Shown: positions 8,757 through 61,485 of the stretch, one piece after another | Layout: each line of letters begins with the position of its first letter | Numbering within the stretch: the first letter of the stretch is position 1 | Made by a program: the position numbers and the translations under genes | The notes under the pieces: generated by a model | The model's input: the letters and a program-made list of their open reading frames with translations, nothing else | Told to the model about the DNA's origin: nothing | Databases searched by the model: none | Source of the DNA: Paludibacteraceae bacterium | Lineage (GTDB): Bacteria; Bacteroidota; Bacteroidia; Bacteroidales; Paludibacteraceae | Length of the DNA: 64,000 bases | Reading direction: 5' to 3' | NCBI GenBank assembly: GCA_017439235.1 | Contig: JAFSJN010000013.1 | Coordinates: 1-64,000, forward strand

Positions 8757-8798
8757 TAATTAAGAATTAAGAATTTCTAATCACTAATCACTAATCGA
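8757..8798. repeat. 7-nt-period tract at the recX 3' end
   Basis: Six consecutive heptamers: TAATTAA, GAATTAA, GAATTTC, TAATCAC, TAATCAC, TAATCGA. The stop codon of recX (8791-8793) lies inside the tract, so the last two codons and the stop come from repeat sequence. Confidence 0.85.
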
Positions 8799-9186
8799 GG
8801 TCGTCGCTTGTGAAGCCACGTGAGCGGGGATTCTTGGTTTGTCGGATAGCTTTCTCGAGGGCACGTTGGTACTCATTGGGGTCGATGGCATTAAGGGCAT
8901 CATCGATGACGGTCTCGGGCAGGTGTTTAGCCCGTAGGGCGGCAGCAATCTTGAGTTTACCCCACCCATTAAAACGCACCTTATCGCGTGCAAAAGCGGA
9001 GGCATAGCGTCTATCGTTGAGGTAGTCGTTCCGGTGCAAGAGGTCAATGACCTGCTGCGCCTGTTCGTCCGTTCCGCCCCAGAGACGCATCTTAAGGCGT
9101 ATATCGTCGGCACAGTATTCGGCACGTGCACAGAGTTGTTGCGCCTTAGCCGATAAGTCGCGCAGAGACAAAGCGGTCTTTTCCAT
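8791..9186 (-). CDS. recX: RecX family regulator of RecA
   Basis: At 131 residues this is the usual compact size of Bacteroidetes RecX. The pattern LSAKAQQLCARAEYCADDIR followed by a conserved K-x-R-L-W-G and then YLNDRRYASAFARDKVRFNGWG is the RecX three-helix signature. RecX binds RecA filaments and limits recombination and SOS activity. The chosen ATG lies inside the end of prmC, a 41-nt overlap in a different frame, which implies translational coupling. The C-terminus SDDLD ends in the heptamer tract at 8757-8798. Confidence 0.85.
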   Translation of the reverse strand: MEKTALSLRDLSAKAQQLCARAEYCADDIRLKMRLWGGTDEQAQQVIDLLHRNDYLNDRRYASAFARDKVRFNGWGKLKIAAALRAKHLPETVIDDALNAIDPNEYQRALEKAIRQTKNPRSRGFTSDDLD

Positions 9187-10123
9187 AGGAGTCGTGATAG
9201 AGTTGTATATCGTTATAGCCCAAGCCGTCCAACAGGTGGCAGACAGCAGGGCCGAAGGATTCGTTGATTTCGAAGAAGAGGAGGGATTCTCGATTAGTGA
9301 TTTTCGATTTTCTATTAGTGATTAGGAACTCGGCTATGCGGCGATAGAAGAGCAGCGGGTCGTTGTCGGGGACAAAGAGAGCAGTATGCGGTTCGTAGTC
9401 GAGGACGGAGGCCGACATATCCGCCGCCTCGCTATGACGGACGTAGGGAGGGTTGGAGACGACGAGGTCGTATTTAGGATTTAAGATTTCAGATTTAAGA
9501 TTTAAGATTTCAGATTTAGGATTTAAGATGTCAAATTTAGGATTGAGGATGTCGGCGGTGAAGAAGGTGATGTCGACGTTGTTGCGGCGGGCATTCTCGC
9601 GGGCGACGTCAAGTGCCGATTCAGAGATATCACAAGCGAAGACTTGCCATTCAGGATGCGCTTTCTTGAGCGCAATAGCGATGCAGCCGGAGCCGGTGCC
9701 GATGTCGAGGACGCGGATTTTAGATTTATGATTTAAGATTTTAGATTTATGATTTAAGATTTCAAATTTATGATTTAAGATTTCTTTTCCTGACGGAACG
9801 ATTACTTCAAATTTATGATTTAAGATTAGAGAGACTAATTCGGCGGTTTCGGGACGTGGAATAAGGGTGTCAGGAGTGACTTTTAGGTCGAGTCCATTCC
9901 ACAAAGTATGCTGAAAAATATACTGTATGGGCTCTTTTTTTGCAATTCTTTGTAAAATATTTTCGATATTCGGAATATTTTTTGTATCTTTGCCGCCCGT
10001 AAGGATTTGCGTGCGTGAAAGGCCTGTGGATTCTTCGATAATCCAGAAGGCCGTCTCGCGAGCCTCAGCCGGTGAGAGATAGGGTAAGAGGCGCTCGGTA
10101 AGATGGTGCAAAAAGTCTTTCAC
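9146..10123 (-). CDS. prmC: PrmC, release-factor glutamine methyltransferase, with three in-frame repeat insertions
   Basis: PrmC methylates the GGQ glutamine of peptide release factors using S-adenosylmethionine. The SAM motif VLDIGTGSG (about residue 139) and the substrate-binding NPPY (about residue 223) are intact, after an N-terminal helical domain. From the GTG start the protein has 325 residues, longer than the usual 275-290. The surplus sits in three places: repeated ILNHKSK units before the SAM motif, ILNPKSE-type units before VVSNPPY, and ITNRKSK units in the C-terminal lobe. All are translations of 7-nt-period DNA and fall between conserved motifs, so the enzyme is probably still active. 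The start is GTG at 10123, because the -7 box at 10127-10135 overlaps any longer reading; this makes the mRNA nearly leaderless. Confidence 0.9.
   Translation of the reverse strand: MKDFLHHLTERLLPYLSPAEARETAFWIIEESTGLSRTQILTGGKDTKNIPNIENILQRIAKKEPIQYIFQHTLWNGLDLKVTPDTLIPRPETAELVSLILNHKFEVIVPSGKEILNHKFEILNHKSKILNHKSKIRVLDIGTGSGCIAIALKKAHPEWQVFACDISESALDVARENARRNNVDITFFTADILNPKFDILNPKSEILNLKSEILNPKYDLVVSNPPYVRHSEAADMSASVLDYEPHTALFVPDNDPLLFYRRIAEFLITNRKSKITNRESLLFFEINESFGPAVCHLLDGLGYNDIQLYHDSYGKDRFVSARLIG
9285..9326 (-). repeat. Heptamer tract 1 inside prmC
   Basis: Plus-strand units GATTCTC, GATTAGT, GATTTTC, GATTTTC, TATTAGT, GATTAGG make six heptamers, or two 21-nt units. They are translated in frame as ITNRKSK and ITNRESL in the C-terminal lobe of PrmC. 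Confidence 0.85.
9471..9554 (-). repeat. Heptamer tract 2 inside prmC (four 21-nt units)
   Basis: Twelve heptamers in a row follow the order GATTTAG/GATTTAA, GATTTAA, GATTTCA (plus strand), so three heptamers form a 21-nt unit. The coding strand reads ILNPKFD, ILNPKSE, ILNLKSE, ILNPKYD, directly before the catalytic NPPY region. The third heptamer of each unit ends in CA or CG rather than AA, which avoids the TAA that a pure repeat would create. Confidence 0.9.
9716..9830 (-). repeat. Heptamer tract 3 inside prmC, with a unique core
   Basis: Ten heptamers (9716-9785: GATTTTA, GATTTAT, GATTTAA and variants), then a 24-nt non-repeat spacer (9786-9809), then three more heptamers (9810-9830). 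Translation gives repeated ILNHKSK and a FEVIVPSGKE insert before the SAM motif. Part of the spacer with its flank (9797-9816) is an exact reverse-complement copy of 29521-29540. Confidence 0.9.
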
Positions 10124-10126
10124 GGT

Positions 10127-10159
10127 GCAAAGGTACAAAATTATTTGCAGGCCTGCAAA
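10127..10159 (-). promoter_or_regulatory. prmC promoter, leaderless type
   Basis: TACCTTTG on the minus strand (10128-10135) is a perfect -7 element, and TTTG (10156-10159) is the -33 element at 20-nt spacing. Transcription would begin within a few bases of the GTG at 10123. Confidence 0.7.
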
Positions 10160-10160
10160 T
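10143..10160. promoter_or_regulatory. Perfect 18-bp palindrome between prmC and ribD
   Basis: ATTTGCAGGCCTGCAAAT equals its own reverse complement. It lies in the gap between the divergent prmC and ribD genes, and its right arm contains the -33 TTTG of the prmC promoter. The position and symmetry fit a binding site for a dimeric repressor. No candidate regulator is encoded nearby. Confidence 0.55.
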
Positions 10161-10163
10161 TTT

Positions 10164-10187
10164 TGATTTAAAATTTAAGATTTGACC
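10164..10187. repeat. Heptamer run supplying the ribD start codon
   Basis: TGATTTA, AAATTTA, AGATTTG style heptamers lie directly before ribD. The only usable start codon of ribD, TTG at 10182, is formed by this run, and an in-frame TAA (10176-10178) lies just upstream. Confidence 0.6.
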
Positions 10188-11246
10188 CGAGAGGAACGAT
10201 ATATAGCCCGTTGTGTAGAGTTAGCCCGTTTAGGGGAATACTACGTAGCACCCAATCCTATGGTGGGAGCGGTGCTGGTAGATGCATCAGGCAAAATCAT
10301 CGCTGAGGGTTGGCATCGTCATTATGGCGGTCCGCATGCAGAGGTGGAGTGTTTTAGGGAGTGGGAGATTAAAAATGAAGAATTAAAAATTAAGAATTAC
10401 GACCTCTCCGAATGTACGCTATATGTGAGTCTGGAGCCGTGCAGTCATTACGGTAAGACGCCGCCGTGTGCGGACATGATAATAGCTAAGGGTGTGAAGC
10501 GCGTAGTAGTGGGCATGGAGGACCCTAATCCGTTAGTGGCCGGTAAGGGTATAGCACGTATGCGTGAAGCGGGTATAGAGGTGACGGTAGGTGTAGGCGA
10601 GGCGATGTGTCGGGAAGTGAATAAGCGTTTTATCTGCCTGCACGAGAAACACCGCCCGTATGTGACGCTCAAGTGGGCGCAGACAAGGGACGGCTTCCTG
10701 GATAGGAAGCGGCAGGGTGAAGAGTCAAGAGAGAAGAGTGAAGAGCGGCATTTGAACGGAGCCTTGGCTATCTCCAATACGGTGACGAAGCAGGAGGTGC
10801 ATAAGTTGCGGGCGGAGAATATGGCTATCATGGTAGGTACGCGCACGGCGTTATTGGATAATCCGGGATTGAAGACAACTCATTGGCCGGGACGCAATCC
10901 CATACGGGTGCTGTTGGACCGCAAGGGTGTGGTGCCGCGCGAGAGCAAGCTCTTCTCGCCGGACGCAGAGACGATAGTGTATAGCGAGTGCACGGATTGG
11001 GAATATATCCTCAACGACTTGGCGCAGCGTGGCATACACTCGCTGTTAGTAGAAGGCGGTGCGCAGGTATTGCAGACGATATTAGACTCAGGCATCTACG
11101 ACGAGGTGCAGATAGAATACGGCGATGAGGCTTTAGGCACAGAAGGCGTTAAAGCGCCGGAGATAAACGAGACGAAGTATGAGAAAAACAACACTATATT
11201 TTTTGGCGGTCATCTGTTTAAGCGCTTGCAGTTCTTTCAGGCATAA
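10182..11246 (+). CDS. ribD: RibD, bifunctional riboflavin deaminase/reductase
   Basis: RibD performs the deaminase and reductase steps of riboflavin synthesis. The deaminase zinc site is visible as PHAEVEC and, after an unusual insert, SLEPCSH-x-x-KTPPC. The reductase half has VTLKWAQTRDGF, HKLRAENMAIMVGTRTALLDNP and LLVEGGAQVL. At 354 residues the length is normal apart from two low-complexity inserts: WEIKNEELKIKNY near residue 70 and EESREKSEER near residue 185. Both are encoded by heptamer repeats and both sit in surface loops. No ATG precedes the conserved PNPMVGAV region, so TTG at 10182 is the start. It heads a long plus-strand gene run and overlaps the next gene by 68 nt. Confidence 0.9.
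   Translation: MTREERYIARCVELARLGEYYVAPNPMVGAVLVDASGKIIAEGWHRHYGGPHAEVECFREWEIKNEELKIKNYDLSECTLYVSLEPCSHYGKTPPCADMIIAKGVKRVVVGMEDPNPLVAGKGIARMREAGIEVTVGVGEAMCREVNKRFICLHEKHRPYVTLKWAQTRDGFLDRKRQGEESREKSEERHLNGALAISNTVTKQEVHKLRAENMAIMVGTRTALLDNPGLKTTHWPGRNPIRVLLDRKGVVPRESKLFSPDAETIVYSECTDWEYILNDLAQRGIHSLLVEGGAQVLQTILDSGIYDEVQIEYGDEALGTEGVKAPEINETKYEKNNTIFFGGHLFKRLQFFQA
10365..10399 (+). repeat. Heptamer tract in the RibD deaminase domain
   Basis: Five heptamers: GAGATTA, AAAATGA, AGAATTA, AAAATTA, AGAATTA. They are translated in frame between the two zinc-binding motifs. Confidence 0.8.
10717..10744 (+). repeat. Heptamer tract in the RibD reductase domain
   Basis: Four heptamers: GTGAAGA, GTCAAGA, GAGAAGA, GTGAAGA. 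The unit sequence differs from the other ribD tract but keeps the 7-nt period. Confidence 0.8.
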
Positions 11247-12021
11247 GCAGCAAGCGGGTGTAGCCGCCGAGGTGGCAGGTCAGCGTTTGGAGTACCGCAT
11301 TATAGACGCGGTGACGGCCGATGCTACGGACGCGGAGGACAGTGCCCGTATAGCAGACCGTTATATCCGTCAATGGGCGACGGATATCTTGGTATACGAG
11401 AAAGCCAAAGACCGTGCCTCAGCCGACCTGGAGCGCTTGGTAGAAGACTACCGCCGTTCGCTATATGTGCATGAATATGAGCAGCGTTTAGTGGCTCACC
11501 GCAAACCCAAGCAGATACCGGACACGGCTGTAGAGCGTTTCTATGAGGACAACGCATCGCTGTTCGTGTTGCGCGAGACGATAGTAAAGGGAGCCTTGCT
11601 CATCGTGCCCAAAGCCGCGCCTCAGCAGGATAAGTTACGCGGATGGCTCGGTAAGATGACCGACGAGAACATAGAGAAGATAGAGAAATACGCCTATCAG
11701 TATGCCACAGGTTATGAGTTATTCCCGGATGAGTGGAAGACCGCCAATCAGTTGCAGATGTGGTTGCCTATGCAGCCGGAGGTGCTGCAGCAAAAGATTC
11801 GCAGCCACAGTATGATACAAGCCGAAGACTCGGCCTCGGTATACCTGTTGCAGGTGACGGACAAGAAGATGCGCGGCGAACAGATGCCGGTAGACTATGC
11901 CGCTCCGGAGATACGCCGATTATTAGAAGGATTACAACAAAAAGAATATTTACAGGAAGAGAGAGAGCGTCTGTACGAAGAAGCATTACTCTTTCACAAA
12001 CTGAAACTGTATGAAAAATAA
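11179..12021 (+). CDS. Periplasmic lipoprotein related to parvulin-type foldases
   Basis: A 280-residue protein whose signal peptide ends in the lipobox LSAC (Cys at about residue 17), so it should be a lipoprotein. The middle (about 110-160) contains IPDTAVERFYEDN and ETIVKGALLIVPK, resembling the region before a PpiC/SurA-type domain. The C-terminal part is helical with a charged end. No complete parvulin domain is clear, so chaperone activity is more likely than isomerase activity. It overlaps ribD by 68 nt and the following SurA-like gene by 11 nt. In Bacteroidetes such a lipoprotein commonly accompanies SurA-like foldases, consistent with outer-membrane protein biogenesis. Confidence 0.75.
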   Translation: MRKTTLYFLAVICLSACSSFRHKQQAGVAAEVAGQRLEYRIIDAVTADATDAEDSARIADRYIRQWATDILVYEKAKDRASADLERLVEDYRRSLYVHEYEQRLVAHRKPKQIPDTAVERFYEDNASLFVLRETIVKGALLIVPKAAPQQDKLRGWLGKMTDENIEKIEKYAYQYATGYELFPDEWKTANQLQMWLPMQPEVLQQKIRSHSMIQAEDSASVYLLQVTDKKMRGEQMPVDYAAPEIRRLLEGLQQKEYLQEERERLYEEALLFHKLKLYEK

Positions 12022-13363
12022 GACACTATTGACCATGCTGTTCATGGCACTCAGTGTGCCCATGGTAGCCGATAATATCATTGACGAGGTTATCTGGATA
12101 GTAGGTGACGAAGCCATCCTGCGCAGCGAGGTAGAAGAGGAGAAGTTGCGCGCGCAATATGAGGGTCAGGAGATGAAAGGTGATCCGTACTGCGTTATCC
12201 CCGAACAGATAGCCGTGCAAAAGTTGTTCCTCCACCAGGCGGAGTTAGACTCCGTCGAGGCTAACGAGTCGTCGGTGAGTCACCAGGTGGATATGCGAAT
12301 CAACTACTATATCTCGCAGATAGGTTCCAAGGAGAAGATGGAAGAGTATTTCCGCAAGCCTCAGACCGAGATACGCGAGGAGTTGATGACGACGGTGCGT
12401 AATCAGATGATCATCCAACAGATGCAGCAGAAGTTGACGTCGCATATCAAACCCACTCCGGCTGAGATACGCCGTTTCTACAACTCGCTGCCGGCCGACT
12501 CGATACCATTGATCCCGGCACAGGTAGAGGTGCAGATATTGAGTTTTGAACCGCAGGTGCCCAAAGAGGAGATAGAGCGTATCAAGTCGCGTCTGCGTGA
12601 GTTCACGGAGCGTGTGAATACGGGCAAGGCCGACTTCTCGATGCTTGCGCGTCTGTACTCGGAAGATACAGAGAGTGCGAAACGCGGCGGCGAGTTAGGT
12701 TTTGTGGGACGCGGACAGTTGGTGACGGAGTTTGCTGATGTGGCCTTCAACCTCAACGACCCCAAGAAAGTGAGTCGTATAGTAGAGTCGGAATACGGTT
12801 TCCACATCATCCAGTTGATTGAGAAAAAAGGTGAGCGTATCAACTGCCGTCACATATTGATGAAGCCGCGTGTATCGGCTACCGACAAAGTGCACTCGCT
12901 GGAGCGCTTGGACTCCATCATCAACGTGGTTCGCCGCGGCGATGCGACCTTTGAGCAGGCTGTGGCTTATTTCTCGCAAGATAAGTCGACGGCTATGAAT
13001 GCCGGTCTGATGACTAACTCGTCTACCGGTTCGAGTAAGTTTGAGTACCAAGACCTGCCTCCGGAGATAGCCAAACAGATTTACACGCTCAAAGAGGGCG
13101 ATATATCGCAGCCCTTTGTGATGATGGACCAAGCGAAGAATAAAGAGGTGTGCGCTGTCGTTAAGCTCAAGACCAAGAAAGAGGTGCACCGCGCGAACAT
13201 GGTAGACGACTACCAGACGATACGCTCCATGCTGGAGCAGAAACTGAGTGCGCAGTATATCTTAGACTGGATTAAGCGCAAGCAGAAAGAGACGTATATC
13301 TTTATTGACGAACACTGGCGCGGATGCGACTTTGAGTATCCCGGATGGATTCATGAGGAGTGA
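12011..13363 (+). CDS. SurA-like periplasmic peptidyl-prolyl isomerase
   Basis: The 450-residue protein has a signal peptide (MKNKTLLTMLFMALSVPMVA), an N-terminal SurA-like helical domain beginning at DEVIWIVGDEAILRSEV, and two parvulin domains at about 170-275 and 280-385. The first shows SEDTESAKRGGELGFVGRGQ and FHIIQLIEKKGE, and the second NCRHILMKPRVS with FSQDKSTAMNAG. SurA-type proteins escort unfolded outer-membrane proteins across the periplasm. The gene follows a related lipoprotein and precedes an OstA-like protein and an outer-membrane barrel, so the segment looks devoted to envelope assembly. Confidence 0.88.
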   Translation: MKNKTLLTMLFMALSVPMVADNIIDEVIWIVGDEAILRSEVEEEKLRAQYEGQEMKGDPYCVIPEQIAVQKLFLHQAELDSVEANESSVSHQVDMRINYYISQIGSKEKMEEYFRKPQTEIREELMTTVRNQMIIQQMQQKLTSHIKPTPAEIRRFYNSLPADSIPLIPAQVEVQILSFEPQVPKEEIERIKSRLREFTERVNTGKADFSMLARLYSEDTESAKRGGELGFVGRGQLVTEFADVAFNLNDPKKVSRIVESEYGFHIIQLIEKKGERINCRHILMKPRVSATDKVHSLERLDSIINVVRRGDATFEQAVAYFSQDKSTAMNAGLMTNSSTGSSKFEYQDLPPEIAKQIYTLKEGDISQPFVMMDQAKNKEVCAVVKLKTKKEVHRANMVDDYQTIRSMLEQKLSAQYILDWIKRKQKETYIFIDEHWRGCDFEYPGWIHEE

Positions 13364-13384
13364 ATGAGTGAATGAGTGAATGAA
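13357..13384 (+). repeat. 8-nt tandem repeat at the surA-like / OstA-like junction
   Basis: GAGTGAAT is repeated about three times. The tract contains the stop of the upstream gene and runs into the start codon of the next gene. Confidence 0.75.
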
Positions 13385-15838: not shown

Positions 15839-15852
15839 TTTACTGCTCCCTC

Positions 15853-17868: not shown

Positions 17869-18635
17869 TGCTATTCGATACCATCATATATGGCCCTATT
17901 CATTCGCGCCGCTTGGGCGTGTCGCTCGGTGTCAACCTGTTGCCGACCGACCATAAGGTGTGCACCTTCGATTGCGTCTATTGCGAATGCGGCTGGAATA
18001 CGCCCGTCTCGCACCCTATACTCCCCACGCGCGAACAGGTAAAAGAGGCTTTGGAACAACAACTCGCTTCCTTCGCCGCCAATCAATCGCCCTTAGACGT
18101 CATCACTTTCTCGGGCAATGGCGAGCCGACCCTGCATCCCGATTTTGAGGATATCATAGCCGACACCTGCGCCTTGCGCGACCGCTATTATCCTCAGGCT
18201 AAAGTGTCCGTCTTGAGTAACTCCACGCAGATAGGACGCGAAGAGGTGCGCCGCGCACTCATGCTCTGCGACAACCGCATCCTCAAACTCGACTCGGCCA
18301 TTGACACCACGATGCGCCTTATCGACCGACCATCGAATAATGAACTGACGGTAGCCGCTATCGTTGAACGGCTGAAAGCCTTTGAGGGGCAGTTTACCCT
18401 GCAGACTTGTTTCCTGAGGGGCGACTATTACGGCACGCCCATCGACAACACCACGCCGGACGAGTTGCAAGCCTGGTACCGCGTAGTGGACACCCTCCGG
18501 CCGCAACAAATCATGATTTACGTCATCGATAGAGCGACACCGCTGAAGACTTTAGAGAAACTGTCCCGTCCGGAAATGGAGGCTATAGCGGCTCCGCTGA
18601 TTCAACAAGGGTATAACGTCCTTATCTCCGCCTAA
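17868..18635 (+). CDS. Radical SAM protein
   Basis: The 255-residue protein carries CTFDCVYC (Cys 32, 36, 39), the CxxxCxxC ligand set for the radical SAM [4Fe-4S] cluster. It also has the GNGEPTLHPDF glycine/glutamate motif near residue 85 and the opening IYGPIHSRRLGVSLGVNLLP, typical of a conserved single-domain radical SAM family in Bacteroidetes and Firmicutes. Its substrate is not established. It is joined by overlapping stop/start codons to dnaG and to the glycosyltransferase gene. Confidence 0.85.
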   Translation: MLFDTIIYGPIHSRRLGVSLGVNLLPTDHKVCTFDCVYCECGWNTPVSHPILPTREQVKEALEQQLASFAANQSPLDVITFSGNGEPTLHPDFEDIIADTCALRDRYYPQAKVSVLSNSTQIGREEVRRALMLCDNRILKLDSAIDTTMRLIDRPSNNELTVAAIVERLKAFEGQFTLQTCFLRGDYYGTPIDNTTPDELQAWYRVVDTLRPQQIMIYVIDRATPLKTLEKLSRPEMEAIAAPLIQQGYNVLISA

Positions 18636-19567
18636 TGAAGATCTTCGTTGCACCACTCAACTGGGGACTGGGACACGCTACGCGCTGCGTCCCGCTCATC
18701 CGACAATGGATAGCCGAAGGGCATCAGGTGGTCTTAGGTGGTGACGGCGAGAGTCTGCAAGTGCTGCAGCAGCATTTTCCCGATTTACCGGCTATTGCTC
18801 TCCCGCACCTGCAACTTAGGTATTCATCCGGACGCAGTCAGGTATTAGCTATCCTGCGTTCCCTGCCCCACCTCATCGCTGTATCGCGTGCGGAGCATAA
18901 GGCTTTGCAGCGCATCCTCGAGGAACAACACTTCGACCTTATCGTCTCCGACAACCGCTTTGGACTATATCTGAGTCGTCGCTCGCGCACTCGTCATCCT
19001 AATACGCGCTGCGTTTATATGACGCATCAACTGACGATATTGTTGCCGCGCGGTTGGCGTCGGTTGCAACCCTTGGTGCGACGTTTGCACGCCCACATCT
19101 ATGGCCATTATGATGAGGTTTGGATACCCGACTTTGCCGAGGCCACCCATAGTCTGGCCGGCATTATGAGTCATCCTTCCTCCTTCCGATACCTCGGTCC
19201 GCTCAGCCGCTTCGAGGCGTCTACATCTTACACCGTACACCCTACGCCTTACACTGTGGTCGCCCTCCTCTCCGGATTGGAGCCGCATAGGACGATGTTG
19301 GAGCAGGCAATTCGTGAGCGCTATCGGGGACAGGAGGAACAATTGCTTATTGCCCGCGGTAAATATCCCTCGCTCAGCGATGACGAGTTAGCCTCGGCTC
19401 TCCTGCAAGCCAAACACATTATCGCCCGCTCCGGCTACTCGACTATTATGGATTTACACGCCTTAGGATTGCTGCGCAAATGGCACGAAGGGCGCGTGAC
19501 GATAGAACTTATCCCCACTCCCGGCCAACCGGAACAGGAATATCTGGCTCAATACATTCGTCAATAG
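18635..19567 (+). CDS. Glycosyltransferase-like protein of the MurG/GT28 fold
   Basis: The 310-residue protein begins with FVAPLNWGLGHATRCVPLIR, a nucleotide-sugar glycosyltransferase start with the GLGHA-x-R motif, and ends with an IIARSGYSTIMDL acceptor/donor signature. It resembles the family annotated as Glyco_trans_1_3; donor and acceptor are unknown. Between the two lobes, STSYTVHPTPYTVVALLSG includes about 12 residues encoded by a heptamer repeat (19220-19254). Last gene of the plus-strand run that starts at ribD. Confidence 0.75.
   Translation: MKIFVAPLNWGLGHATRCVPLIRQWIAEGHQVVLGGDGESLQVLQQHFPDLPAIALPHLQLRYSSGRSQVLAILRSLPHLIAVSRAEHKALQRILEEQHFDLIVSDNRFGLYLSRRSRTRHPNTRCVYMTHQLTILLPRGWRRLQPLVRRLHAHIYGHYDEVWIPDFAEATHSLAGIMSHPSSFRYLGPLSRFEASTSYTVHPTPYTVVALLSGLEPHRTMLEQAIRERYRGQEEQLLIARGKYPSLSDDELASALLQAKHIIARSGYSTIMDLHALGLLRKWHEGRVTIELIPTPGQPEQEYLAQYIRQ
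19220..19254 (+). repeat. Heptamer tract in the glycosyltransferase linker
   Basis: TCTACAT, CTTACAC, CGTACAC, CCTACGC, CTTACAC: five units at exact 7-nt spacing, C/T-rich rather than A/T-rich, translated in frame between the protein's two lobes. Confidence 0.8.
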
Positions 19568-19603
19568 TGTGCGCGCGTGTGCGTACCTTAAATAAATAAA
19601 AAA

Positions 19604-19632: not shown

Positions 19633-19653
19633 TGTAATAGGTGGTATTCCCGA

Positions 19654-29520: not shown

Positions 29521-29582
29521 ATAAATTTGAAGTAATCGTTTTAGGTTACTAAATAAGAAATCATAAATCAAAAATCATAAAT
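29521..29582 (+). repeat. Core plus heptamers between rnfC and rnfD
   Basis: Directly after the rnfC stop comes ATAAATTTGAAGTAATCGTT (29521-29540), an exact match to the reverse complement of 9797-9816 in prmC. After a short variable stretch, five heptamers follow (29548-29582: ACTAAAT, AAGAAAT, CATAAAT, CAAAAAT, CATAAAT), ending at the rnfD ATG. Confidence 0.9.
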
Positions 29583-31241: not shown

Positions 31242-31821
31242 CGGATTAAAAACACTGATGAACGGTATTCTCAAGGAGAATCCGACATTCGTCCTCGTAC
31301 TGGGTATGTGCCCGACGTTGGCCACGACCACCAGCGCCATCAACGGCATGTCGATGGGCTTGGCAACGATGTTTGTGCTGATATGCTCCAATGTCGTTAT
31401 CTCGCTCCTAAAGAACCTCATCCCCGATAAGGTACGTATCCCGGCCTTCATCGTGGTGATTGCTACCTTCGTGACGCTCGTGCAACTGTTGATGCAAGCT
31501 TACCTACCGGCTATCTACGACGTGTTGGGATTGTTTATCCCGCTGATTGTAGTTAACTGTATCGTGCTCGGTCGTGCCGAAGCGTTTGCAGCGAAGAACA
31601 GCGTAGGCCTCAGCGCTCTCGACGGCATCGGTATGGGTCTTGGTTTCACCCTCGCCCTCACCCTCCTCGGCGCAGTACGTGAGTTGTTAGGCACAGGTTC
31701 ATGCTTTGGCTTACCGGTCTTCCCGGAAAACTACGGAGCACTCGTCTTCGTCCTCGCCCCGGGTGCCTTCATCGCCCTCGCTTACTTGATGGTTATTATC
31801 AACAAGTTGCAGAAAAAATAA
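31234..31821 (+). CDS. rnfE: RnfE, membrane subunit
   Basis: A 195-residue, six-helix membrane protein related to RnfA, with ENPTFVLVLGMCPTLATTT near the start and LIVVNCIVLGRAEAFA in the middle, where the cysteines are conserved in the RnfA/RnfE/Nqr pair. It forms with RnfA the membrane core that holds an Fe-S centre. The ribosome-binding site GGAGG is at 31223-31227. Confidence 0.93.
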   Translation: MSNGLKTLMNGILKENPTFVLVLGMCPTLATTTSAINGMSMGLATMFVLICSNVVISLLKNLIPDKVRIPAFIVVIATFVTLVQLLMQAYLPAIYDVLGLFIPLIVVNCIVLGRAEAFAAKNSVGLSALDGIGMGLGFTLALTLLGAVRELLGTGSCFGLPVFPENYGALVFVLAPGAFIALAYLMVIINKLQKK

Positions 31822-31851
31822 ATCATAAATCATAAATTTGAAATTTGAAAT
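31817..31851 (+). repeat. Heptamer tract between rnfE and rnfA
   Basis: AATAAAT, CATAAAT, CATAAAT, TTGAAAT, TTGAAAT: five heptamers that include the rnfE stop and end 3 nt before the rnfA ATG. CATAAAT is also the unit in the rnfC-rnfD gap. Confidence 0.85.
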
Positions 31852-38831: not shown

Positions 38832-40322
38832 ATGGGTAAATCGGATTATATCATAGAAGTGAACCACGTATCGAAGCAGTTTGAGGATGGGAAATATGCC
38901 TTAAACGACGTGAGTTTGCAAGTACGCAAGGGCGAGTTTGTGACGATATTAGGTCCTTCGGGCTGCGGTAAGACAACGCTGTTGCGTTGCATAGCGGGTT
39001 TTCAGGTAGCGTCAGAAGGCGATATACTGCTTAACGGCGAGGATGTAACGGAGACGCCGCCTAACGAGCGTCCGGTGAACACGGTATTCCAGAAATACGC
39101 CCTCTTCCCCCACCTGAACGTATACGAGAACGTAGCCTTCGGTCTGAAGCTCAAGAAAGTGCCGTCGCAGGAGATAGAACGTCGCGTACGTAAGGCGCTG
39201 AAGATGGTGAGTATGTCGGACTACGAATACCGCGACGTTAACAGTCTGAGTGGCGGTCAGCAGCAGCGTGTAGCCATAGCGCGCGCCATCATCAACGAGC
39301 CGGAAGTGCTATTATTGGATGAGCCGTTAGCGGCCTTAGACCGTAAGATGCGCGCAGACATGCAGATAGAGTTGCGTGAGATGCACCAGAAACTCGGTAT
39401 CACCTTTATCTACGTCACCCACGACCAGGAAGAGGCGTTGACGCTGAGCGACCGCGTAGTAGTGATGCGTGAAGGTAAGATACAGCAGATAGGTGCTCCG
39501 ACAGATATATACAACGAGCCGTGTAACTGTTTCGTAGCGGACTTCATCGGCGAGAGTAATATATTAGACGCCGTGATGATTAAAGACCGCTTGGTGCACT
39601 TCTGCGACCAGGACTTTGAATGCGTCGATGCCGGCTTCGGCGAGAAAGCGGAAGTGGACGTAGTGATCCGTCCCGAAGACCTATATATTTGGGAAGTGCC
39701 GGCCGACTTAGAGAAAGGCACCAAGACATTAGGTGAGATAGCTCAGATGCAAGCGGACTACGACCCGGAAGACCGTGTACCGAAAGGTAAGTTCACGCGT
39801 CTATATGGCGAAGTGCGCACCTGTATCTTCAAAGGCGTGCACTACGAGATGACCGTGATGACGGACAACGGTTACGAGCTGATGGTACAGGACTATCACC
39901 AGTTCTTACCGGGCACACAGGTCGGGATGATTGTCAAGCCGGAAGATATACAAGTGATGCGTAAGGAGCGTCTGTGCAACACGTTCGATGGCAAGGTGCT
40001 GAAAGATAACCAGGTAGAGTTCTTAGGCGCCACATGGGATCTGAGCGACCGCGTAGCCGAGCGTTTCGAGCCGGGCGACGAGGTAGAGGTAGAAGTGGAC
40101 TTCAACCACGTGAACCTGCAGGACGATGAAGACGAAGGCACGCTGCAAGGCGAGGTGTACTTTATCCTATATAAAGGCGACCACTACCACCTACAGGTGC
40201 GTACGGACGACGGTGACGACCTGTTTGTAGACACCAACGATATATGGGACGACGGCGACCGCGTAGGTATAAAGATTGCGCCGAGTTGGATTAGGTTATA
40301 TAAGAAGGAAGTGAAGAGCTGA
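38832..40322 (+). CDS. potA: PotA, spermidine/putrescine ABC transporter ATPase
   Basis: The ATPase domain shows Walker [12 protein letters not shown] (about residues 39-49), signature [14 protein letters not shown] and Walker [13 protein letters not shown]. It powers polyamine uptake through PotB/PotC. At 496 residues it is over 100 longer than the E. coli protein; the surplus is a C-terminal beta region with two TOBE-like repeats ([20 protein letters not shown] and [19 protein letters not shown]). Its last codons and stop lie in a heptamer tract. Confidence 0.92.
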
Positions 40323-40345
40323 GAGCTAAGAGTTAAGAGTGATGA
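40311..40345 (+). repeat. Heptamer tract across the potA stop and potB start
   Basis: GTGAAGA, GCTGAGA, GCTAAGA, GTTAAGA, GTGATGA: five units at exact 7-nt spacing. The second supplies the potA stop TGA and the last supplies the potB GTG/ATG. Confidence 0.85.
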
Positions 40346-49192: not shown

Positions 49193-49195
49193 CGT

Positions 49196-54877: not shown

Positions 54878-54886
54878 AGCCTACGG

Positions 54887-55906: not shown

Positions 55907-55926
55907 ATACGTTCTAAATTAGGCCA

Positions 55927-55958
55927 CAAAGGTACACTTTTTTTTGCATTTATGCAAA
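55927..55958 (-). promoter_or_regulatory. Promoter of the mreB operon
   Basis: TACCTTTG (55927-55934) and TTTG (55955-55958) with a 20-nt spacer on the minus strand. The mreB ATG is 21 nt past the -7 element. Confidence 0.78.
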
Positions 55959-55984
55959 TTTTTAAGAAATTAATACATAAAAAT

Positions 55985-56015
55985 TTTGTCAAGTCATGAA
56001 AAAACAGTAACTTTG
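55985..56015 (+). promoter_or_regulatory. Promoter of the CBM26-type lipoprotein gene
   Basis: TTTG (55985-55988), a 19-nt spacer and TAACTTTG (56008-56015), diverging from the mreB promoter. The start codon lies at 56068. Confidence 0.72.
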
Positions 56016-56067
56016 TACCCGAATAGCAAACATACTGCGATTGATAACCCTTAAAATACCTGCTCAT

Positions 56068-57213
56068 ATGAAACACATTTCTTCCCTTTTGCTTACCTTA
56101 ACCGCCGCCTTGATGACGACTATTCTGTTGCCTTCGTGCGGAGGTACCGGCGCCAATAAGAACGATGCGCCTATCGCCTTACCCGAAATAGCCGCACCGG
56201 CCAAGGGTTCGGTTACATTAGCCGTTCACACCCCTGCGGGTACCTGCAACGGTATATATGCCGTGGGTACGATGAATGCCTACGATGCCGCTAATCTTGA
56301 TTATACTTTTGCTCCCTTAGCCGGACAAAAAGACTGGTACACACTAACCCTGCCCTATGCGCCGGACTTATCCGTTAAGGTATTGGCTATTCCGGAGGAG
56401 AAGAGCGAAGCCGGTTGGTCGTATCAATGGGCTCCTCGCGGCTCAGCAACCGATCCTATGTTCCCCAACGTAGTGCTGCTGCAAGGTCCTGCTCACCTGC
56501 TATACGAGAATGGCAATCAACCTAAGTTGGACAGTATAGCTGATGGCGCTGTAGTATGGGTCAATATTAAGGCGTGGGCCGTAACTCCCTGCGACGAAGC
56601 CGTAGTAGCTACTGCCGTATGGATCAAGCACCCCTGGAACGGAGATAACTGGACGTGGGTCGAGATGGAGCCTGTCAGCGAAGGAATATTTGAATACCGC
56701 GGTGTATGGGGTGCTGCCGGTGCCAACCTCTCGTCCGATGGTTTGGACGGCGGTGTATGGTATCCCTATCCGTCAATAGAAGGTGAGGAACTGCCCGCTA
56801 TTGGCGATACGGTTCTCTTCACCTTCGTATCCACGCACGGTGCACAGGGAACACTCAGTATTCGTTTGCTCGCTCATAGCGAGAACCGCACAATGCCTTA
56901 TCCATATGGCGAAAAGAAACAACGCGGACCAATTATTGTACGCGTACGTCCTAAGACCTGGACGCATGTGAATATGTATGCTTGGACTCCGGAAGGTAAG
57001 ATGCTTACCGAGTCATGGCCTGGCACAGCAATGAAGCCGGATCCTGTCACCCGAGGCGTATACATGTACACCTTCCCGGCGGATGTGAAGAGTGTGAATG
57101 TAGTCTTCAATAACTTTGATGCCGAAGGAGGCAGTCAGACTTCTGATATCCAAGAATTAGCCGGCAACTGCACCTTCATCATCGAAGATGACTGCACCTG
57201 GCACGTTCAATAA
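56068..57213 (+). CDS. Lipoprotein with a CBM26-type starch-binding domain
   Basis: The start MKHISSLLLTLTAALMTTIL at 56068 leads to the lipobox LLPSCGG, so the 381-residue protein is lipid-anchored. The C-terminal 90 residues read THVNMYAWTPEGKMLTESWP, then GTAM, YMYTFPADVKSVNVVFNNFD and QTSDIQEL. This matches the pattern of starch-binding module family 26 (aromatic platform, WPG, VFNN, QTSDI). The N-terminal part (GIYAVGTMNAYDAANLDYTF) and the middle region are beta-rich and resemble the stacked domains of SusE/SusF-like glycan-binding lipoproteins. A surface starch-binding role is inferred. No SusC/SusD pair is nearby, and the gene has its own promoter. It converges on the pectate lyase gene with a 7-nt overlap. 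Confidence 0.75.
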   Translation: MKHISSLLLTLTAALMTTILLPSCGGTGANKNDAPIALPEIAAPAKGSVTLAVHTPAGTCNGIYAVGTMNAYDAANLDYTFAPLAGQKDWYTLTLPYAPDLSVKVLAIPEEKSEAGWSYQWAPRGSATDPMFPNVVLLQGPAHLLYENGNQPKLDSIADGAVVWVNIKAWAVTPCDEAVVATAVWIKHPWNGDNWTWVEMEPVSEGIFEYRGVWGAAGANLSSDGLDGGVWYPYPSIEGEELPAIGDTVLFTFVSTHGAQGTLSIRLLAHSENRTMPYPYGEKKQRGPIIVRVRPKTWTHVNMYAWTPEGKMLTESWPGTAMKPDPVTRGVYMYTFPADVKSVNVVFNNFDAEGGSQTSDIQELAGNCTFIIEDDCTWHVQ

Positions 57214-58841
57214 TACTTCTTACCGTCACGAATGACAATACCTTTGTACTCGGCGCCTACGGGCTGGCCGAGTACATTGTATCTTTGGCTGCGTATATCG
57301 GCTTTTACTTCCTCTAAGGCATCCTCTACCGGCTGCCATCCGTCATCCATCGGTGTGCGCATGAGCATGAGTCCGTTCAAATACTCCTCCAGCATCGTAT
57401 ACCCCGATGCGGCTATCGTATTTTGGTCCGGCACATCAGGATTCAGACCGTGTGCCGTCTCCCACTCGTCGGGCATACCGTCGCCATCGGTATCCTCTGC
57501 GGCGGTTACTTCGGGATAAGCATAAAAACCTTCTGCATCGGTCTCTACATCGATGACACCTTTTCTCCGACTCTTACTGCCCGTAAAGGTATAACTTGTC
57601 ATCCGGGTATCGTTGACCAAGCGTTTCTCCACATGGTCACGCGGAAAAGCTCCTGCTGTATCTAAGACGGTCTGCAGGGCCTCTTCGGCAGTCTGATAGG
57701 GTTGCGCAGCATAAGCCAGTGACGCCCAATCGTAGCGTCCGTACACCGAGTCGGCAGTCCAGCGATACCAGGGCGTAGCGGTACGAATAACCGTATCCAC
57801 CAACAGTTGGTCTACGGTATAAGTCTTCTCACTCTTGAATCCCGACTTATTATCCTGCGTCAGGGCATCCTTGCCGTCCATAACATTGCCGCTCAGATGC
57901 CATTTTGACGGTCCCCACGAAGTAGCATTCTTGCGCGCATAACTCGACATAACGAAGAGCAGGGTGCTATTGGTCGTATTGGGCCCCATACGGTAGTAAT
58001 TATTCAGCATATTGCATTCGTGGACCGAATTGAGGCCGTTGTATTCTCCTTGGGCCAAGTTAGCAGTATTCTCGCCTCCGTAGCATCCATTCGACCCGCC
58101 ACCGTAGTTGTAGACAACGTTATTGATATAGTCGATATAGGTGACATAATCATTGCTCTGCGAGCCGTTGAATCGACACGAGCGCTGGTTGTTATGCACC
58201 AACAGGTTATGATGGAACGAAGCCGGAGAACCGCCCCATTGACTGCCATATCCGCGGGCGCCCTTGGGGTGTCCGGCGTTGTACAAGCCCTCGTGAACGA
58301 TGCAATATTGTACGGTAATAAAATGGCTGTCGTAAGAATTCATATTCTCCTCAATAGACCATCCGAAATCGCAGTGGTCAAAGATATAGTACATACAGTT
58401 CTCGGCTCCTACAGCATTTTGCGTCAATGTATCTCCTTGGGTGCTCAACTGTCCTATGCGGAAGCGGAGATTGCGGACAATAAAGTTCTCGCTGCCGCCG
58501 AAGTTGACTTTATGGTGCGTGATGACTATTCCCAGTCCGGGCGCTGACTGTCCGGCTATCGTGTAGTTCTTACGATTGATGCGCAGCATACTCTCCAGAC
58601 GTATCTCTCCGCTTACAGCAAAGAGCACCGTCAACGGATCGTTCGGATACTGCTGTAAGGCCCATCGCAGCGACCCCTCACCGTTGTCGTTCAGATTGGT
58701 TACATAGACCACCTTGCCTCCTCGTCCGCCCGAGGTATACTTACCGAAACCCTCAGCGCCGGGGAAAGCCGGCAACGAGAAATCCTGTGCACTTGCTACC
58801 AACGTCAGCACGCAGCAGCACAACCATAACAGATGTCTCAT
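57207..58841 (-). CDS. Secreted pectate lyase-like polysaccharide lyase
   Basis: A 544-residue exported protein (signal peptide MRHLLWLCCCVLTLVASAQD). FPGAEGFGKYTSGGRGGKVV and TNLNDNGEGSLRWALQQYPN open the parallel beta-helix typical of family-1-like pectate lyases, and GLGIVITHHKVNFGGSENFI continues it. Near residue 455 DTDGDGMPDEWETAHGLNPD is a calcium-binding thrombospondin-type-3-like loop. The tail ends YNVLGQPV, then GIVIRDGKKYY, the ordinary order of a Bacteroidales sorting-type tail. It cleaves or binds pectic polymers by inference. The ATG overlaps the HMA stop, tying it to a metal-uptake operon. Confidence 0.82.
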   Translation of the reverse strand: MRHLLWLCCCVLTLVASAQDFSLPAFPGAEGFGKYTSGGRGGKVVYVTNLNDNGEGSLRWALQQYPNDPLTVLFAVSGEIRLESMLRINRKNYTIAGQSAPGLGIVITHHKVNFGGSENFIVRNLRFRIGQLSTQGDTLTQNAVGAENCMYYIFDHCDFGWSIEENMNSYDSHFITVQYCIVHEGLYNAGHPKGARGYGSQWGGSPASFHHNLLVHNNQRSCRFNGSQSNDYVTYIDYINNVVYNYGGGSNGCYGGENTANLAQGEYNGLNSVHECNMLNNYYRMGPNTTNSTLLFVMSSYARKNATSWGPSKWHLSGNVMDGKDALTQDNKSGFKSEKTYTVDQLLVDTVIRTATPWYRWTADSVYGRYDWASLAYAAQPYQTAEEALQTVLDTAGAFPRDHVEKRLVNDTRMTSYTFTGSKSRRKGVIDVETDAEGFYAYPEVTAAEDTDGDGMPDEWETAHGLNPDVPDQNTIAASGYTMLEEYLNGLMLMRTPMDDGWQPVEDALEEVKADIRSQRYNVLGQPVGAEYKGIVIRDGKKYY

Positions 58842-59143
58842 AATCGTAATTCTTCTTTGGTTAAATAAGCCGGTTTACCGATGGCCTTAAAGGCCTTCTG
58901 CAGGGTCGGCACATCGGTTTTATTAGCATCATAGGTTACCTCGACCGTCTTCTTGTTTAGGTCACATTTCAGGTCCTTAACGCCTTTCTCAAAGGCTATG
59001 GTCTTATATATCTTATCGATGCACCCTTGGCAGTGGATATTAACATAAAAGACCACGGTCTGCTTATTGGCTTTAGCCGCAGCCTCGTCCACTACAGTGA
59101 ACAGCAGCATCATGGCTGCCAACCATATGATTAGTCGTCGCAT
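58838..59143 (-). CDS. Exported heavy-metal-associated (HMA) domain protein
   Basis: A 101-residue protein with a signal peptide (MRRLIIWLAAMMLLFTVV...AAA) and one HMA domain: VVFYVNIHCQGCIDKIYKTI, with Cys38 and Cys41 as the CxxC metal pair. HMA domains carry copper or similar soft metals. It is 3 nt downstream of the TonB receptor gene, a pairing known in Bacteroidetes, and suggests the receptor imports a metal complex. Confidence 0.85.
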   Translation of the reverse strand: MRRLIIWLAAMMLLFTVVDEAAAKANKQTVVFYVNIHCQGCIDKIYKTIAFEKGVKDLKCDLNKKTVEVTYDANKTDVPTLQKAFKAIGKPAYLTKEELRL

Positions 59144-59146
59144 CGT

Positions 59147-61474
59147 TTAGTTCTCCTTTCTATCTAATGCCCATCGCATACCAACATATAGCATCCATCC
59201 GGTGGTGGGGCCCCACACGGTAGACGCATCAAACTCCGGTGTGTCGGTGCGGATGATTCCTTGTGCATCTCTATCGCCCAAGATAGGATCCGCTTGAGTA
59301 TAATTGGTCATATTCTCTGCTCCCACATAGATTGACACATTGTGCTTGAAATACTTCGTCACCTGTGCCATCAATTGGGGATACCAGGGGTAGCGACTCT
59401 TTGGCAGTCCGTCAGGCAAACGACCGGGACCGTTGAATTGTGCCGTGACATCGAATTGCCAGGTCTTGAGGGGCGTGACATAACTGGTAGTTATCACACC
59501 CTTGAAGCGATTGGTCAGCACTTTGCGGCGCAAGTCATAATCGCCTTTGGCGCTATTCCACGTTGTCTGCCGCACATCGGTATAACGGAAGGCGGCCGTC
59601 ATCGTCCAGCCGCGCAGTATCTCTATCGTAGCCTCTATCTGGGCATTATGACTGAACGACTGCGCACCGCTCACATCACTCAGGTTGTAGAACACTACTC
59701 CGTAGCGACTGCTATCCATATCGGCTACTACGCAATCTAGGAAGCGCGTATAGTAATACTCGGCCGACAGTTGCATATTTCTATTGCCTAAGGGGATATC
59801 AAACGTCAATGTCAAGCCGGTATTGACAGCCCGTTCCTGTTTCACCTTACCATAGTTCCATACACGGTTGGACGGCATAAACTGCGCATTATCGGCTATG
59901 AGGTTCGGAGTGCGGTACCCCAATCCGGCCGAGGCACGTATCGTCCACCAGGGGAAGGGAGCATAGCGCACATTCATACGGGGCGTGCAGAACCATCCGT
60001 AACGCGATGACCAGTCGCCTCTGACGCCTGCTACTAAGGAGAACTCGTCCCCTATCTTGTAGGTATATTCGGCAAACACACCGGGTGTTACTTCCTGTCG
60101 TCCCAAGTCGGCACGCGGTGCGGCAAGTCCGCCAATGCTATCCGCGGTCTCATCATAACGGTCATAGTTGACGCTCACGCCTGCCGTCAAAGAATGTGTA
60201 TTCTCTTTGCCGCCCAATATGGGTTGTCCGTCCCAGTGGTTCTCGAACATAGCATTGAGGTAGGCATTCGTTTGTGCAGCATTCCACTGACGCGGACCAT
60301 ATTTATTCTGCTGCTTATGGTACGAAGCTGAGGTGATGATACCTATCGACATACCTGTCTCTTCATCTAAGATGATGCCGTTCTTCATAAACCCTTCTAT
60401 GCGGTCGGTATGCAGGTCTATCAGGTACGGAGGATTAGGGAATACTACCTTATGTTTCTTCCAAGCGCGATCTTTGCGCTGTCCTCCCCAGTGGTCATCA
60501 TGCAGACCACGCACCAGGAATTGGAAGGTATACTCGTCGTTCTTGTAATACCAGCGATTAAGGATATTCAGTTGCTGGTTCATCGGACGGTCCAAGAAGC
60601 CGTCTTTATTCGCATCCATGCCAAGTCGGTCAATCTGGTAGTGCGCCATGACGCCGGTAGATAGTGTGCCCAACATCGGGTCATTGGGAATAGGTATATC
60701 CCATCCGCCCGTCATATTCACTTCGGCACGCAGGTCAGTGTTGAGCATGGCATTCAGTTCGATAGGGTTCTGCAGTTGCGGTTTGAGGTATTCCACATTG
60801 ATTTGGCCGGCGATAGCCTCATAGCCATTGCGAACCGACGAGGTTCCTTTGCTGACCTGTATCGATTCCATCCACGGTCCCGGGATATAACTCATCCCAT
60901 ACGATTGCGCCAAACCGCGTACAGCAGGGCAGTTCTCACCTAACAGTTGCACATAGGTGCCGCTTAGTCCCAATAATCGTATCTGTTTGGCACCCGTAGC
61001 CGCATCGGCGTAGGATACGTCTACAGAGGCATTGGTTTCGAACGACTCACTAAGGTTGCAGCACGCAGCACGACACAGTTCTTCGCGACCTATGGTCTGC
61101 ACATCAAAGGCAGAGAAACGGGAGCGCATCACTGACAACTTGCGTTCGGTAATCGTCACCTCGTCCAGCACCTCGTCCGATACCATCACTATCTTAATCA
61201 GACTACGGTCTTTGATAACCGTTGTATCGTTGCGGTAGCCCAAATAGGAACATATCAGCACCTTAGTCTGACGTATAGGTTCGATTTCAAAAAATCCCTC
61301 AGCATCGGTAGCTGTACCCACTGTAGTACCTTTCCACCACACATTGGCTCCCGCCAAGGGTTCGCCCTTGTCGTCCAATACGATACCTTGTAAGTGCGCC
61401 CATATAGGTAGCACCATCATCCCAAATACTATAGCTAAGATAATCTTTTTCACAACCTCTAAACTCTCAACCAT
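59147..61474 (-). CDS. TonB-dependent outer-membrane receptor
   Basis: The 775-residue protein starts near a heptamer tract; the hydrophobic signal is KKIILAIVFGMMVLPIWA. Next are a carboxypeptidase-regulatory-like domain (QGIVLDDKGEPLAGANVWWK), the plug (SESFETNASVDVSYADAATG, GLSGTYVQLLGENCPAVRGL) and a 22-strand-type barrel ending LYVGMRWALD. With feoAB upstream and an HMA protein downstream, uptake of a metal or metal complex is likely. The residues MVESLEVV before the signal come from the heptamer repeat; a GTG at codon 8 is an alternative start. Confidence 0.87.
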   Translation of the reverse strand: MVESLEVVKKIILAIVFGMMVLPIWAHLQGIVLDDKGEPLAGANVWWKGTTVGTATDAEGFFEIEPIRQTKVLICSYLGYRNDTTVIKDRSLIKIVMVSDEVLDEVTITERKLSVMRSRFSAFDVQTIGREELCRAACCNLSESFETNASVDVSYADAATGAKQIRLLGLSGTYVQLLGENCPAVRGLAQSYGMSYIPGPWMESIQVSKGTSSVRNGYEAIAGQINVEYLKPQLQNPIELNAMLNTDLRAEVNMTGGWDIPIPNDPMLGTLSTGVMAHYQIDRLGMDANKDGFLDRPMNQQLNILNRWYYKNDEYTFQFLVRGLHDDHWGGQRKDRAWKKHKVVFPNPPYLIDLHTDRIEGFMKNGIILDEETGMSIGIITSASYHKQQNKYGPRQWNAAQTNAYLNAMFENHWDGQPILGGKENTHSLTAGVSVNYDRYDETADSIGGLAAPRADLGRQEVTPGVFAEYTYKIGDEFSLVAGVRGDWSSRYGWFCTPRMNVRYAPFPWWTIRASAGLGYRTPNLIADNAQFMPSNRVWNYGKVKQERAVNTGLTLTFDIPLGNRNMQLSAEYYYTRFLDCVVADMDSSRYGVVFYNLSDVSGAQSFSHNAQIEATIEILRGWTMTAAFRYTDVRQTTWNSAKGDYDLRRKVLTNRFKGVITTSYVTPLKTWQFDVTAQFNGPGRLPDGLPKSRYPWYPQLMAQVTKYFKHNVSIYVGAENMTNYTQADPILGDRDAQGIIRTDTPEFDASTVWGPTTGWMLYVGMRWALDRKEN

Positions 61475-61485
61475 AAACTCTAATC
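61458..61485 (-). repeat. Heptamer tract at the start of the TonB receptor gene
   Basis: Plus-strand units TCTAAAC, TCTCAAC, CATAAAC, TCTAATC, with weaker flanking units on either side. It includes both the stop of the small Cys-rich gene (61480-61482) and the ATG of the receptor (61474-61472). Confidence 0.8.

Follow-up and report, generated by a model that had tools for sequence, protein, structure and literature searches.

The subject of this analysis is a stretch of 64,000 nucleotides (nt), hereafter the window, comprising positions 1 to 64,000 of contig JAFSJN010000013.1 from a Paludibacteraceae bacterium of the order Bacteroidales (assembly GCA_017439235.1), and a series of tandem repeats within it that share a period of seven bases while differing in sequence from site to site. 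The genome to which the window belongs, designated G000 below, is represented by an assembly of 1,485,886 bases that is 77% complete. A first-pass annotation made from the sequence alone had listed twelve such heptamer tracts; several of these lie in and next to the gene of the release-factor methyltransferase PrmC. Tracts were located using Tandem Repeats Finder (TRF) and a lag scan, and each coordinate was compared with what a third-order Markov model trained on the window would produce (Table 1). For ten of the twelve, no equal lag-7 stretch was found in 1 Mb of simulated sequence. The stretches at 10164-10187 and 61458-61485 are within chance when taken alone, and the tract given as 9716-9830 proved to be two, separated by a non-repeating stretch at about 9784-9809. 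At a threshold of at least 17 matches in 21, the window holds seven tracts at lag 7 and 0 to 2 at each of the other lags between 2 and 20, multiples of 7 excepted; the mean number of lag-7 tracts in 20 simulations of the window was 0.0. The tracts at 29548, 31817 and 40311 are of the junction type, lying where one of two neighbouring open reading frames (ORFs) ends and the other begins. Tandem arrays of 8-nt units, CTGGTCTA and GAGTGAAT, are present at window positions 6522-6559 and 13358-13383, respectively.

Table 1. Heptamer tracts of the window and the genes that carry or adjoin them.
Feature	Position	Strand	Basis
Heptamer tract over the recX 3' end, AATTAAG then CTAATCA	8757..8798		TRF; lag-7 matches 27/35, none in simulation; recX ORF ends at 8791
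recX	8791..9186	-	Pfam RecX_HTH2 above cut-off, RecX_HTH1 under its cut-off
prmC/hemK, release-factor methyltransferase; tracts in linker, pre-NPPY and post-RRIA loops	9146..10138	-	Pfam PrmC_N and MTS; alignment with relatives
prmC tract, post-RRIA loop, GATTAGT/GATTTTC type	9285..9326		Lag-7 matches 23/35, none in simulation; loop position by alignment
prmC tract, pre-NPPY loop, 84 nt, ATTTAAG type	9471..9554		TRF; alignment; Markov scoring
prmC tract, linker of N-terminal and methyltransferase domains	9716..9783		TRF; alignment; Markov scoring
Short resumption of the 9716-9783 heptamers past the non-repeating stretch	9810..9830		Sequence; scored jointly with 9716-9783
Weak heptamer-like stretch, prmC-ribD gap	10164..10187		Lag-7 matches 11/17, ~51 expected per 64 kb
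ribD	10182..11246	+	Pfam RibD_C and dCMP_cyt_deam_1
In-frame ribD tract, AATTAAA/AATTAAG	10365..10399		21/28, none in simulation; frame open
In-frame ribD tract, GTGAAGA	10717..10744		17/21, none in simulation; frame open
CTTACAC-type tract inside ORF 18635-19567 (+)	19220..19254		20/28, none in simulation
Junction tract, ORF end 29520 / next ORF start 29583	29548..29582		22/28, none in simulation
Tract bridging stop 31821 and next start 31855	31817..31851		24/28, none in simulation
Tract bridging stop 40322 and next start 40339	40311..40345		21/28, none in simulation
Degenerate heptamer stretch, 5' end of ORF 59147-61474 (-)	61458..61485		14/21, ~4.5 expected per 64 kb

The preference for seven extends beyond the window. 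A sample of 316,871 bases of G000 contained 33 tracts at lag 7 and 0 to 4 at other lags from 3 to 13. In 715,064 bases (48% of the assembly), 75 tracts were found at lag 7, compared with 2 at lag 6, 8 at lag 8, 4 at lag 9, 1 at lag 10, 7 at lag 11, 5 at lag 12 and none at lags 5 and 13. An excess of lag 7 over other lags is present in the window (7 versus 0-2) as well as in the larger sample (75 versus 0-8). Across the clade, arrays of at least about three units were counted in 1,071,866 bases: 156 have period 7, 27 period 11, 24 period 8, 10 period 9, 4 each periods 6 and 12, 2 period 10 and 1 period 13, with none of period 3 or 4. One Markov-3 simulation of this count returned a single array of period 7 and none of periods 6 and 8 to 13. 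The period, claimed to be constant, is thus dominant but not strictly constant, and 8-nt and 11-nt arrays accompany it. Units of 6 and 9 nt keep the reading frame and yet are rare, so selection on reading frame is not what sets the period. The 8-nt arrays, third in rank behind 7 and 11, are found at sites also used by 7-nt ones (the PrmC linker). Of the 11-nt arrays, 17/31 are clear of ORFs; the ORF calls behind this and the other site statistics are mechanical, and the set used for the 11-nt arrays over-calls coding sequence (92%). Because they often lie outside ORFs and in one species form part of a dispersed module, we treat the 11-nt arrays as a neighbouring phenomenon.

To place the tracts within prmC, an alignment of 58 rows was built from 103 PrmC ORFs, excluding rows of less than 200 bits (including the split ORFs of loci L093 and L094) and three identical rows, and including two more distant rows (L087 and L092). 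The linker preceding the methyltransferase domain carries arrays in 18/58 rows, with 15 different units (period 7 in 14 cases, 8 in two and 11 in two). Arrays are also present in the pre-NPPY loop (9/58 rows, nine units), the post-RRIA loop (5/58, five units) and the N terminus (4/58, three units). On a tree that omits the array columns, a weak one with stars on 11 of its 55 inner branches, the linker requires at least 12 presence/absence changes and 17 changes of unit state, and the NPPY loop at least 8 and 9, respectively. Lag-7 tracts lie within the PrmC ORF in 26 of the 61 closer rows (which include three identical pairs) and in none of the 42 more distant ones, two of which (L088 and L090) are titled Paludibacteraceae.

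Outside this enzyme, 145 tracts of the genus were compared with random positions. Junctions of a stop and a start hold 29/145 (20.0% versus 1.4% of random positions), starts 16/145 (11.0% versus 1.9%), stops 14/145 (9.7% versus 2.0%) and other intergenic DNA 39/145 (26.9% versus 10.0%), while the interior of ORFs, with 47/145, is strongly under-represented (32.4% versus 84.6%). Tracts are thus found mostly in tolerated sequence, namely stop/start junctions, other intergenic DNA and a few protein loops.

Length was compared between paralogous copies within G000 and between close species. Three paralogous copies of one intergenic tract of G000 measure 48, 48 and 41 nt, with flanks 90-97% identical, and between two of them there is a 70-nt difference in the length of a second tract. 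Eleven close species pairs were aligned, three of them without any lag-7 tract. Clean whole-unit gaps are present in three of the eight tract-bearing pairs: 7 nt in one tract of L064/L094, 7 nt in prmC of L070/L093 and 21 nt in prmC of L064/L077. Length therefore differs by whole units both between copies and between close species, and copy number changes by whole units here (7 and 70 nt between paralogues; 3/8 species pairs) as it does in long simple sequence repeats (LSSRs). The 7-, 21- and 70-nt differences bear out the part of the first-pass annotation that proposed copying in 7-nt steps insofar as they fit growth by units, but indels outside tracts do not peak at 7 nt, and so far as the data go the 7-nt step belongs to existing arrays.

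Tracts are not fixed, as the annotation had foreseen: they differ between species whose sequences at the locus share about 95% identity, and content at a single site turns over fast. The same prmC linker holds CAATTCT units in L064, a palindrome-like sequence in L094 and an 8-nt array in L077. Relative to a tract-free sister, the NPPY-loop tract of L070 adds 30 nt of sequence unlike that of the sister, and the arrival of this tract is itself not a 7n event. In L093, the prmC tract has one unit fewer and the frame is broken there (about 4240), and in L094 the frame is broken at the second tract (about 4540); each of these metagenome-assembled genomes (MAGs) has either a real variant or an assembly error. 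The L093 case may be compared with phase-variable contingency loci, where a change in unit number turns a gene on and off within a population.

Two sets of tracts were noted in G000. In L010-L012 (contigs C2, C3 and C4), heptamer tracts lie between the members of a paralogous short gene pair, which we take to be an HU-like gene and 'smalltalk'; the copies of this pair on contigs C14 and C16 are followed by unrelated sequence past the first gene. Near-identical tracts occur in three copies at L218 (about 4850-5025), L006 (9158-9335, reverse complement) and L015 (10504-10683, reverse complement), presumably between two divergent promoters of the Bacteroidetes type.

Disregarding rotation and strand, 90 different heptamers were distinguished among 196 tracts. 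L053 and L071, duplicates of L138 and L130, do not enter the tallies. A single skeleton common to all units was considered and rejected, as the similarity is weak (information content 4.88 bits versus 4.50 in letter-shuffled units, sd 0.11, maximum 4.69). G and C avoid the same strand, with 34/85 heptamers holding both on one strand against a null mean of 47.4 (sd 3.7). The sequence is locus-specific in that the 75 tracts of G000 comprise 29 different heptamers, but the AAAAATT class alone makes up 21/75. A coding-specific 21-nt super-period, expected from the prmC tracts of the window, is not general: lag-21 identity is 0.716 in 13 tracts inside ORFs and 0.717 in 24 outside.

Tracts of one genome resemble each other more than tracts of different genomes do. 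The same heptamer is shared by 36/742 pairs within genomes and 133/11,039 between genomes, a difference of about fourfold, and over 200 shuffles of the labels the within-genome count averaged 10.9 pairs and never exceeded 24, compared with the 36 observed. Moreover, imperfect 20-mers extending over several units, free of homology in the flanks, are shared by 84/330 same-class pairs within genomes and 20/372 between them (AAAAATT class alone, 74/277 versus 8/219; all other classes, 10/53 versus 12/153). Within G000, 128 pairs share such strings, against a mean of 20.9 and a maximum of 40 once unit order is shuffled. In a search for three consecutive TTTCACC units, four of five related genomes gave 29, 11, 32 and 7 overlapping matches and the fifth none, with no match in any of the five for the reversed control. 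Related imperfect strings of units thus recur at unlinked places in the same genome, implying that sequences spread too, as shown mainly for one unit class. The annotated claim that the pattern is not the spread of one sequence alone was accordingly half right, as both heptamers and imperfect multi-unit strings recur at unlinked sites (AAAAATT in G000, TTTCACC in relatives).

Other small repeats accompany the heptamers. The dispersed module mentioned above consists of a GTCATAG...GAAT leader, several 11-nt units of the ACCCCCTAATC type and then CCCCCTTTTGAGAGGAAA, slightly varied, and was seen at L249 (480-760), L250 (560-760), L255 (450-800), L253 and L064 (2700-2900, reverse strand); heptamer arrays often follow it directly. 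The 11-nt arrays of other species use other units, a CACNNNCTWAT skeleton fitting 7/34. Short palindromes (CTCGCCGGCACATCGGCGAG; CCCCCTTCAGGGGG type) lie beside or between heptamer arrays in L252, L253, L255, L258 and L094 (about 4330-4356). They are also found inside PrmC loops, resembling palindromic elements inserted in coding genes.

The distribution of the tracts was surveyed around prmC and across the phylum. Searching with the window's PrmC returned 73 loci in named genomes; of the closest 41, 19 are titled Paludibacteraceae and the remainder Bacteroidales, Bacteroidia or Candidatus Colicola, and many of them come from the guts of horse, pig, deer or ruminants. These 41 loci carry 72 lag-7 tracts in 342,429 bases (at least one in 27/41), compared with five in 261,674 bases for the 32 more distant loci. 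In the genus of G000, 49 tracts were counted in 430,255 bases from 24 genomes (at least one in 14/24); sampled densities range from 0 to 40 per 100 kb, and 5/25 genomes of the genus have no lag-7 tract in the 10-28 kb sampled. Sixteen other families of the order hold four tracts in 248,618 bases, other orders of the same class three in 320,000 and (mostly) other classes none in 200,000. The 26 stretches from outside the order were picked partly for motif matches and do not include the match-rich genomes G108, G182, G095, G176 and G220, so that the richest outsiders are understated. Heptanucleotide simple-sequence repeats are thus abundant in one Bacteroidales clade, without being private to it: a phylum-wide search with one period-7 motif (three GATTNNN units followed by GATT) found matches in 82/247 genomes, very unevenly spread, and by overlapping matches a few genomes from other parts of the phylum, G176 (159 in 2.6 Mb) and G246 (149 in 5.5 Mb) among them, equal G000 (75 in 1.5 Mb) in richness. 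The reversed motif also matches many genomes, indicating that GATT itself is not special.

We interpret these tracts as heptanucleotide simple-sequence repeats, a type already described, that grow by 7 nt at a time and are copied from one tolerated site to another, a reading to which we assign a probability of roughly 0.55. Arrays would grow by strand slippage in replication or repair. New sites might receive their units from the repeat pool of the same genome, by template switching over short homology or by ectopic conversion, and purifying selection would purge all but the harmless arrivals, giving the position bias. The 7-nt period probably reflects the replication or repair machinery working on existing arrays, because coding constraint would favour 6 or 9. 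No sign of conserved function was seen for any single tract. Several observations weigh against this reading. Most tract differences among close pairs are replacements by unrelated sequence, clean gaps being confined to 3/8 pairs, and indels outside tracts in the 11 species pairs show no 7-nt peak (12, 3, 4 and 8 indels of 6, 7, 8 and 9 nt, respectively). The units AATTACC, AATTATC, AAATATC and AAATTGG in related linker rows resemble drift of one ancestral tract. As for the sharing of 20-mers, G000 supplies 322/330 within-genome pairs and the AT-rich AAAAATT class 74/84 sharing pairs, and since shuffling unit order also breaks runs made by slippage, the shuffle test in G000 overstates the case for copying. 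Finally, the only exact match to ACCATTTACCATTTACC, a string of the L070 prmC, in the L070 genome is the prmC position itself, although the string is present at three other places in the sister genome; the reversed control of this search spells the same repeat and is uninformative.

It is possible, although we consider it doubtful, that slippage is purely local, each tract arising independently at its site from a duplication made by chance, in 7-nt steps set by the polymerase, and no copying taking place between loci. The 90 heptamers in 196 tracts, the different units in the same PrmC loop of different species and the clean 7-, 21- and 70-nt differences are as such an origin would have them, and the tallies of 20-mer sharing by class and of indels outside tracts shift weight towards it, at the expense both of copying between tolerated sites and of an intrinsic 7-nt step, the latter because of the missing 7-nt indel peak. 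The lack of such a peak outside tracts tells against chance duplications as seeds, which should produce one. Independent origins also sit poorly with the fourfold commoner sharing of heptamers within genomes, with the greater within-genome sharing of imperfect multi-unit strings, which persists when the class is held fixed (mostly one class in one genome), and with the 30-nt insertion of L070, unlike its tract-free sister. An intrinsic step is in our judgement unlikely: here the lineage's replication or repair machinery would copy in steps of 7 nt, less often 8, set by a specific enzyme variant, and write tandem arrays of many sequences, and the genome's pool of arrays would be copied over and over into the same tolerated places, rewriting protein loops from one species to the next.

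The strong enrichment at stop+start junctions and starts might instead be adaptive, the arrays serving as upstream elements, translation enhancers, stop signals or phase switches. MacGregor has proposed that TAACTGA repeats close to start codons regulate translation (as given in the accessible part of PMC4679880), and in one MAG a 7-nt difference shifts the frame of prmC. Purifying selection against coding insertions would equally enrich junctions, however, tolerance is a better fit for tracts in enzyme loops, and neither unit sequence nor presence is conserved between close species, making a selected function improbable. An even poorer prospect is the footprint of a mobile element that inserts with a 7-bp (or 8- or 11-bp) target duplication and leaves, the duplications seeding repeats. 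Such an element would account for a period that is constant while the sequence is locus-specific, and for the existence of several discrete periods, and small palindromic modules do lie between heptamer arrays and in the same PrmC loops, but it would not produce shared multi-unit strings, and inspection of loci by eye revealed no element flanked by matching 7-bp duplications, no systematic search having been made. Loss of mismatch repair, with a consequent burst of repeat instability, is very improbable and is rejected as a genus-level cause. G000 and G018, both tract-bearing, have no MutS1 match, but these assemblies are incomplete (77% and 54%, respectively), MutS1 matches are present in 59/61 genomes of the genus (55 above the cut-off), including the tract-rich G007 and G015, and arrays of periods 3 and 4 are not raised (0 each).

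Several repeat families described in other bacteria resemble the tracts reported here. The short tandemly repeated repetitive (STRR) sequences of filamentous cyanobacteria are degenerate tandem heptamers of a copy number that varies between close relatives, several different ones being dispersed in one genome. G000, with 29 heptamers in 75 tracts, likewise holds several dispersed tandem heptamers, whereas its closest named relatives are Bacteroidales. The palindromic elements of Rickettsia are small repeats tolerated inside protein-coding genes. They are comparable in this location, and palindrome-like sequences share some of the loops here, but they are palindromic rather than tandem heptamers. 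Closer in kind are the LSSRs of 5-11 nt, among which heptanucleotides are commonest and for which Mrazek and co-workers (2007) proposed polymerase slippage, relating the number seven to the segment of DNA that the polymerase holds (as quoted in the accessible parts of PMC4679880 and PMC4692102). The ten genomes richest in these repeats belong to Burkholderia, cyanobacteria, actinobacteria and Xanthomonas, according to the same portion of PMC4679880. As in LSSRs so described, units are in tandem, seven is the favoured length and the arrays of the clade exceed chance; the differences are that the host is a Bacteroidales clade and that loops of one conserved enzyme are repeatedly occupied by different units.

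Direct repeats of TAACTGA are reported from Beggiatoaceae, cyanobacteria and five Bacteroidetes including Paludibacter propionicigenes (PMC4679880, accessible part). Like them, the heptamer arrays often lie near start codons, in the same phylum and probably the same family, but there the sequence is one and fixed, and none of our 196 tracts belongs to the TAACTGA class. Although the annotation knew of no described counterpart in Bacteroidales, heptamer repeats had already been reported in Bacteroidetes including Paludibacter. In the P6b stem of the Nostoc tRNA-Leu intron, degenerate tandem heptamers likewise vary in copy number between close relatives, but form a paired RNA stem (PMC3488679, as far as its accessible text goes), whereas the present tracts lie in junctions and protein-coding loops. 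The GGGAATC repeats of Xanthomonas and GGGGAYT repeats of Nostoc share period 7, many dispersed sites and length variation between relatives, but are G-rich and quadruplex-forming (PMC4692102, same portion), and 0/196 tracts fall in the GGGGATT or GGGAATC class. The heptanucleotide as the favoured medium-size repeat, and dispersed heptamers in cyanobacteria, Xanthomonas, Beggiatoaceae and a few Bacteroidetes, are thus already known from the accessible parts of PMC4679880, PMC4692102 and PMC3488679; that of PMC4060949 has nothing on heptamers. No description of the repeats of this clade or of repeated invasion of PrmC loops was found in the literature searched, which left most subscription journals outside.

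Why medium-size bacterial repeats favour seven was raised in 2007 and, in the accessible parts of PMC4679880 and PMC4692102, is answered by hypothesis only. Across related species, the same enzyme loop carries no tract, a 7-nt, 8-nt or 11-nt tract or a palindrome-like sequence, and so provides many comparable events. Comparisons of such loops permit step size, arrival route and rate to be measured, by which the question of the seven bases becomes testable. Tract-bearing loops may confuse gene calling and alignment in MAGs. They also represent a route from short repeat arrays to new peptide segments in a conserved enzyme.

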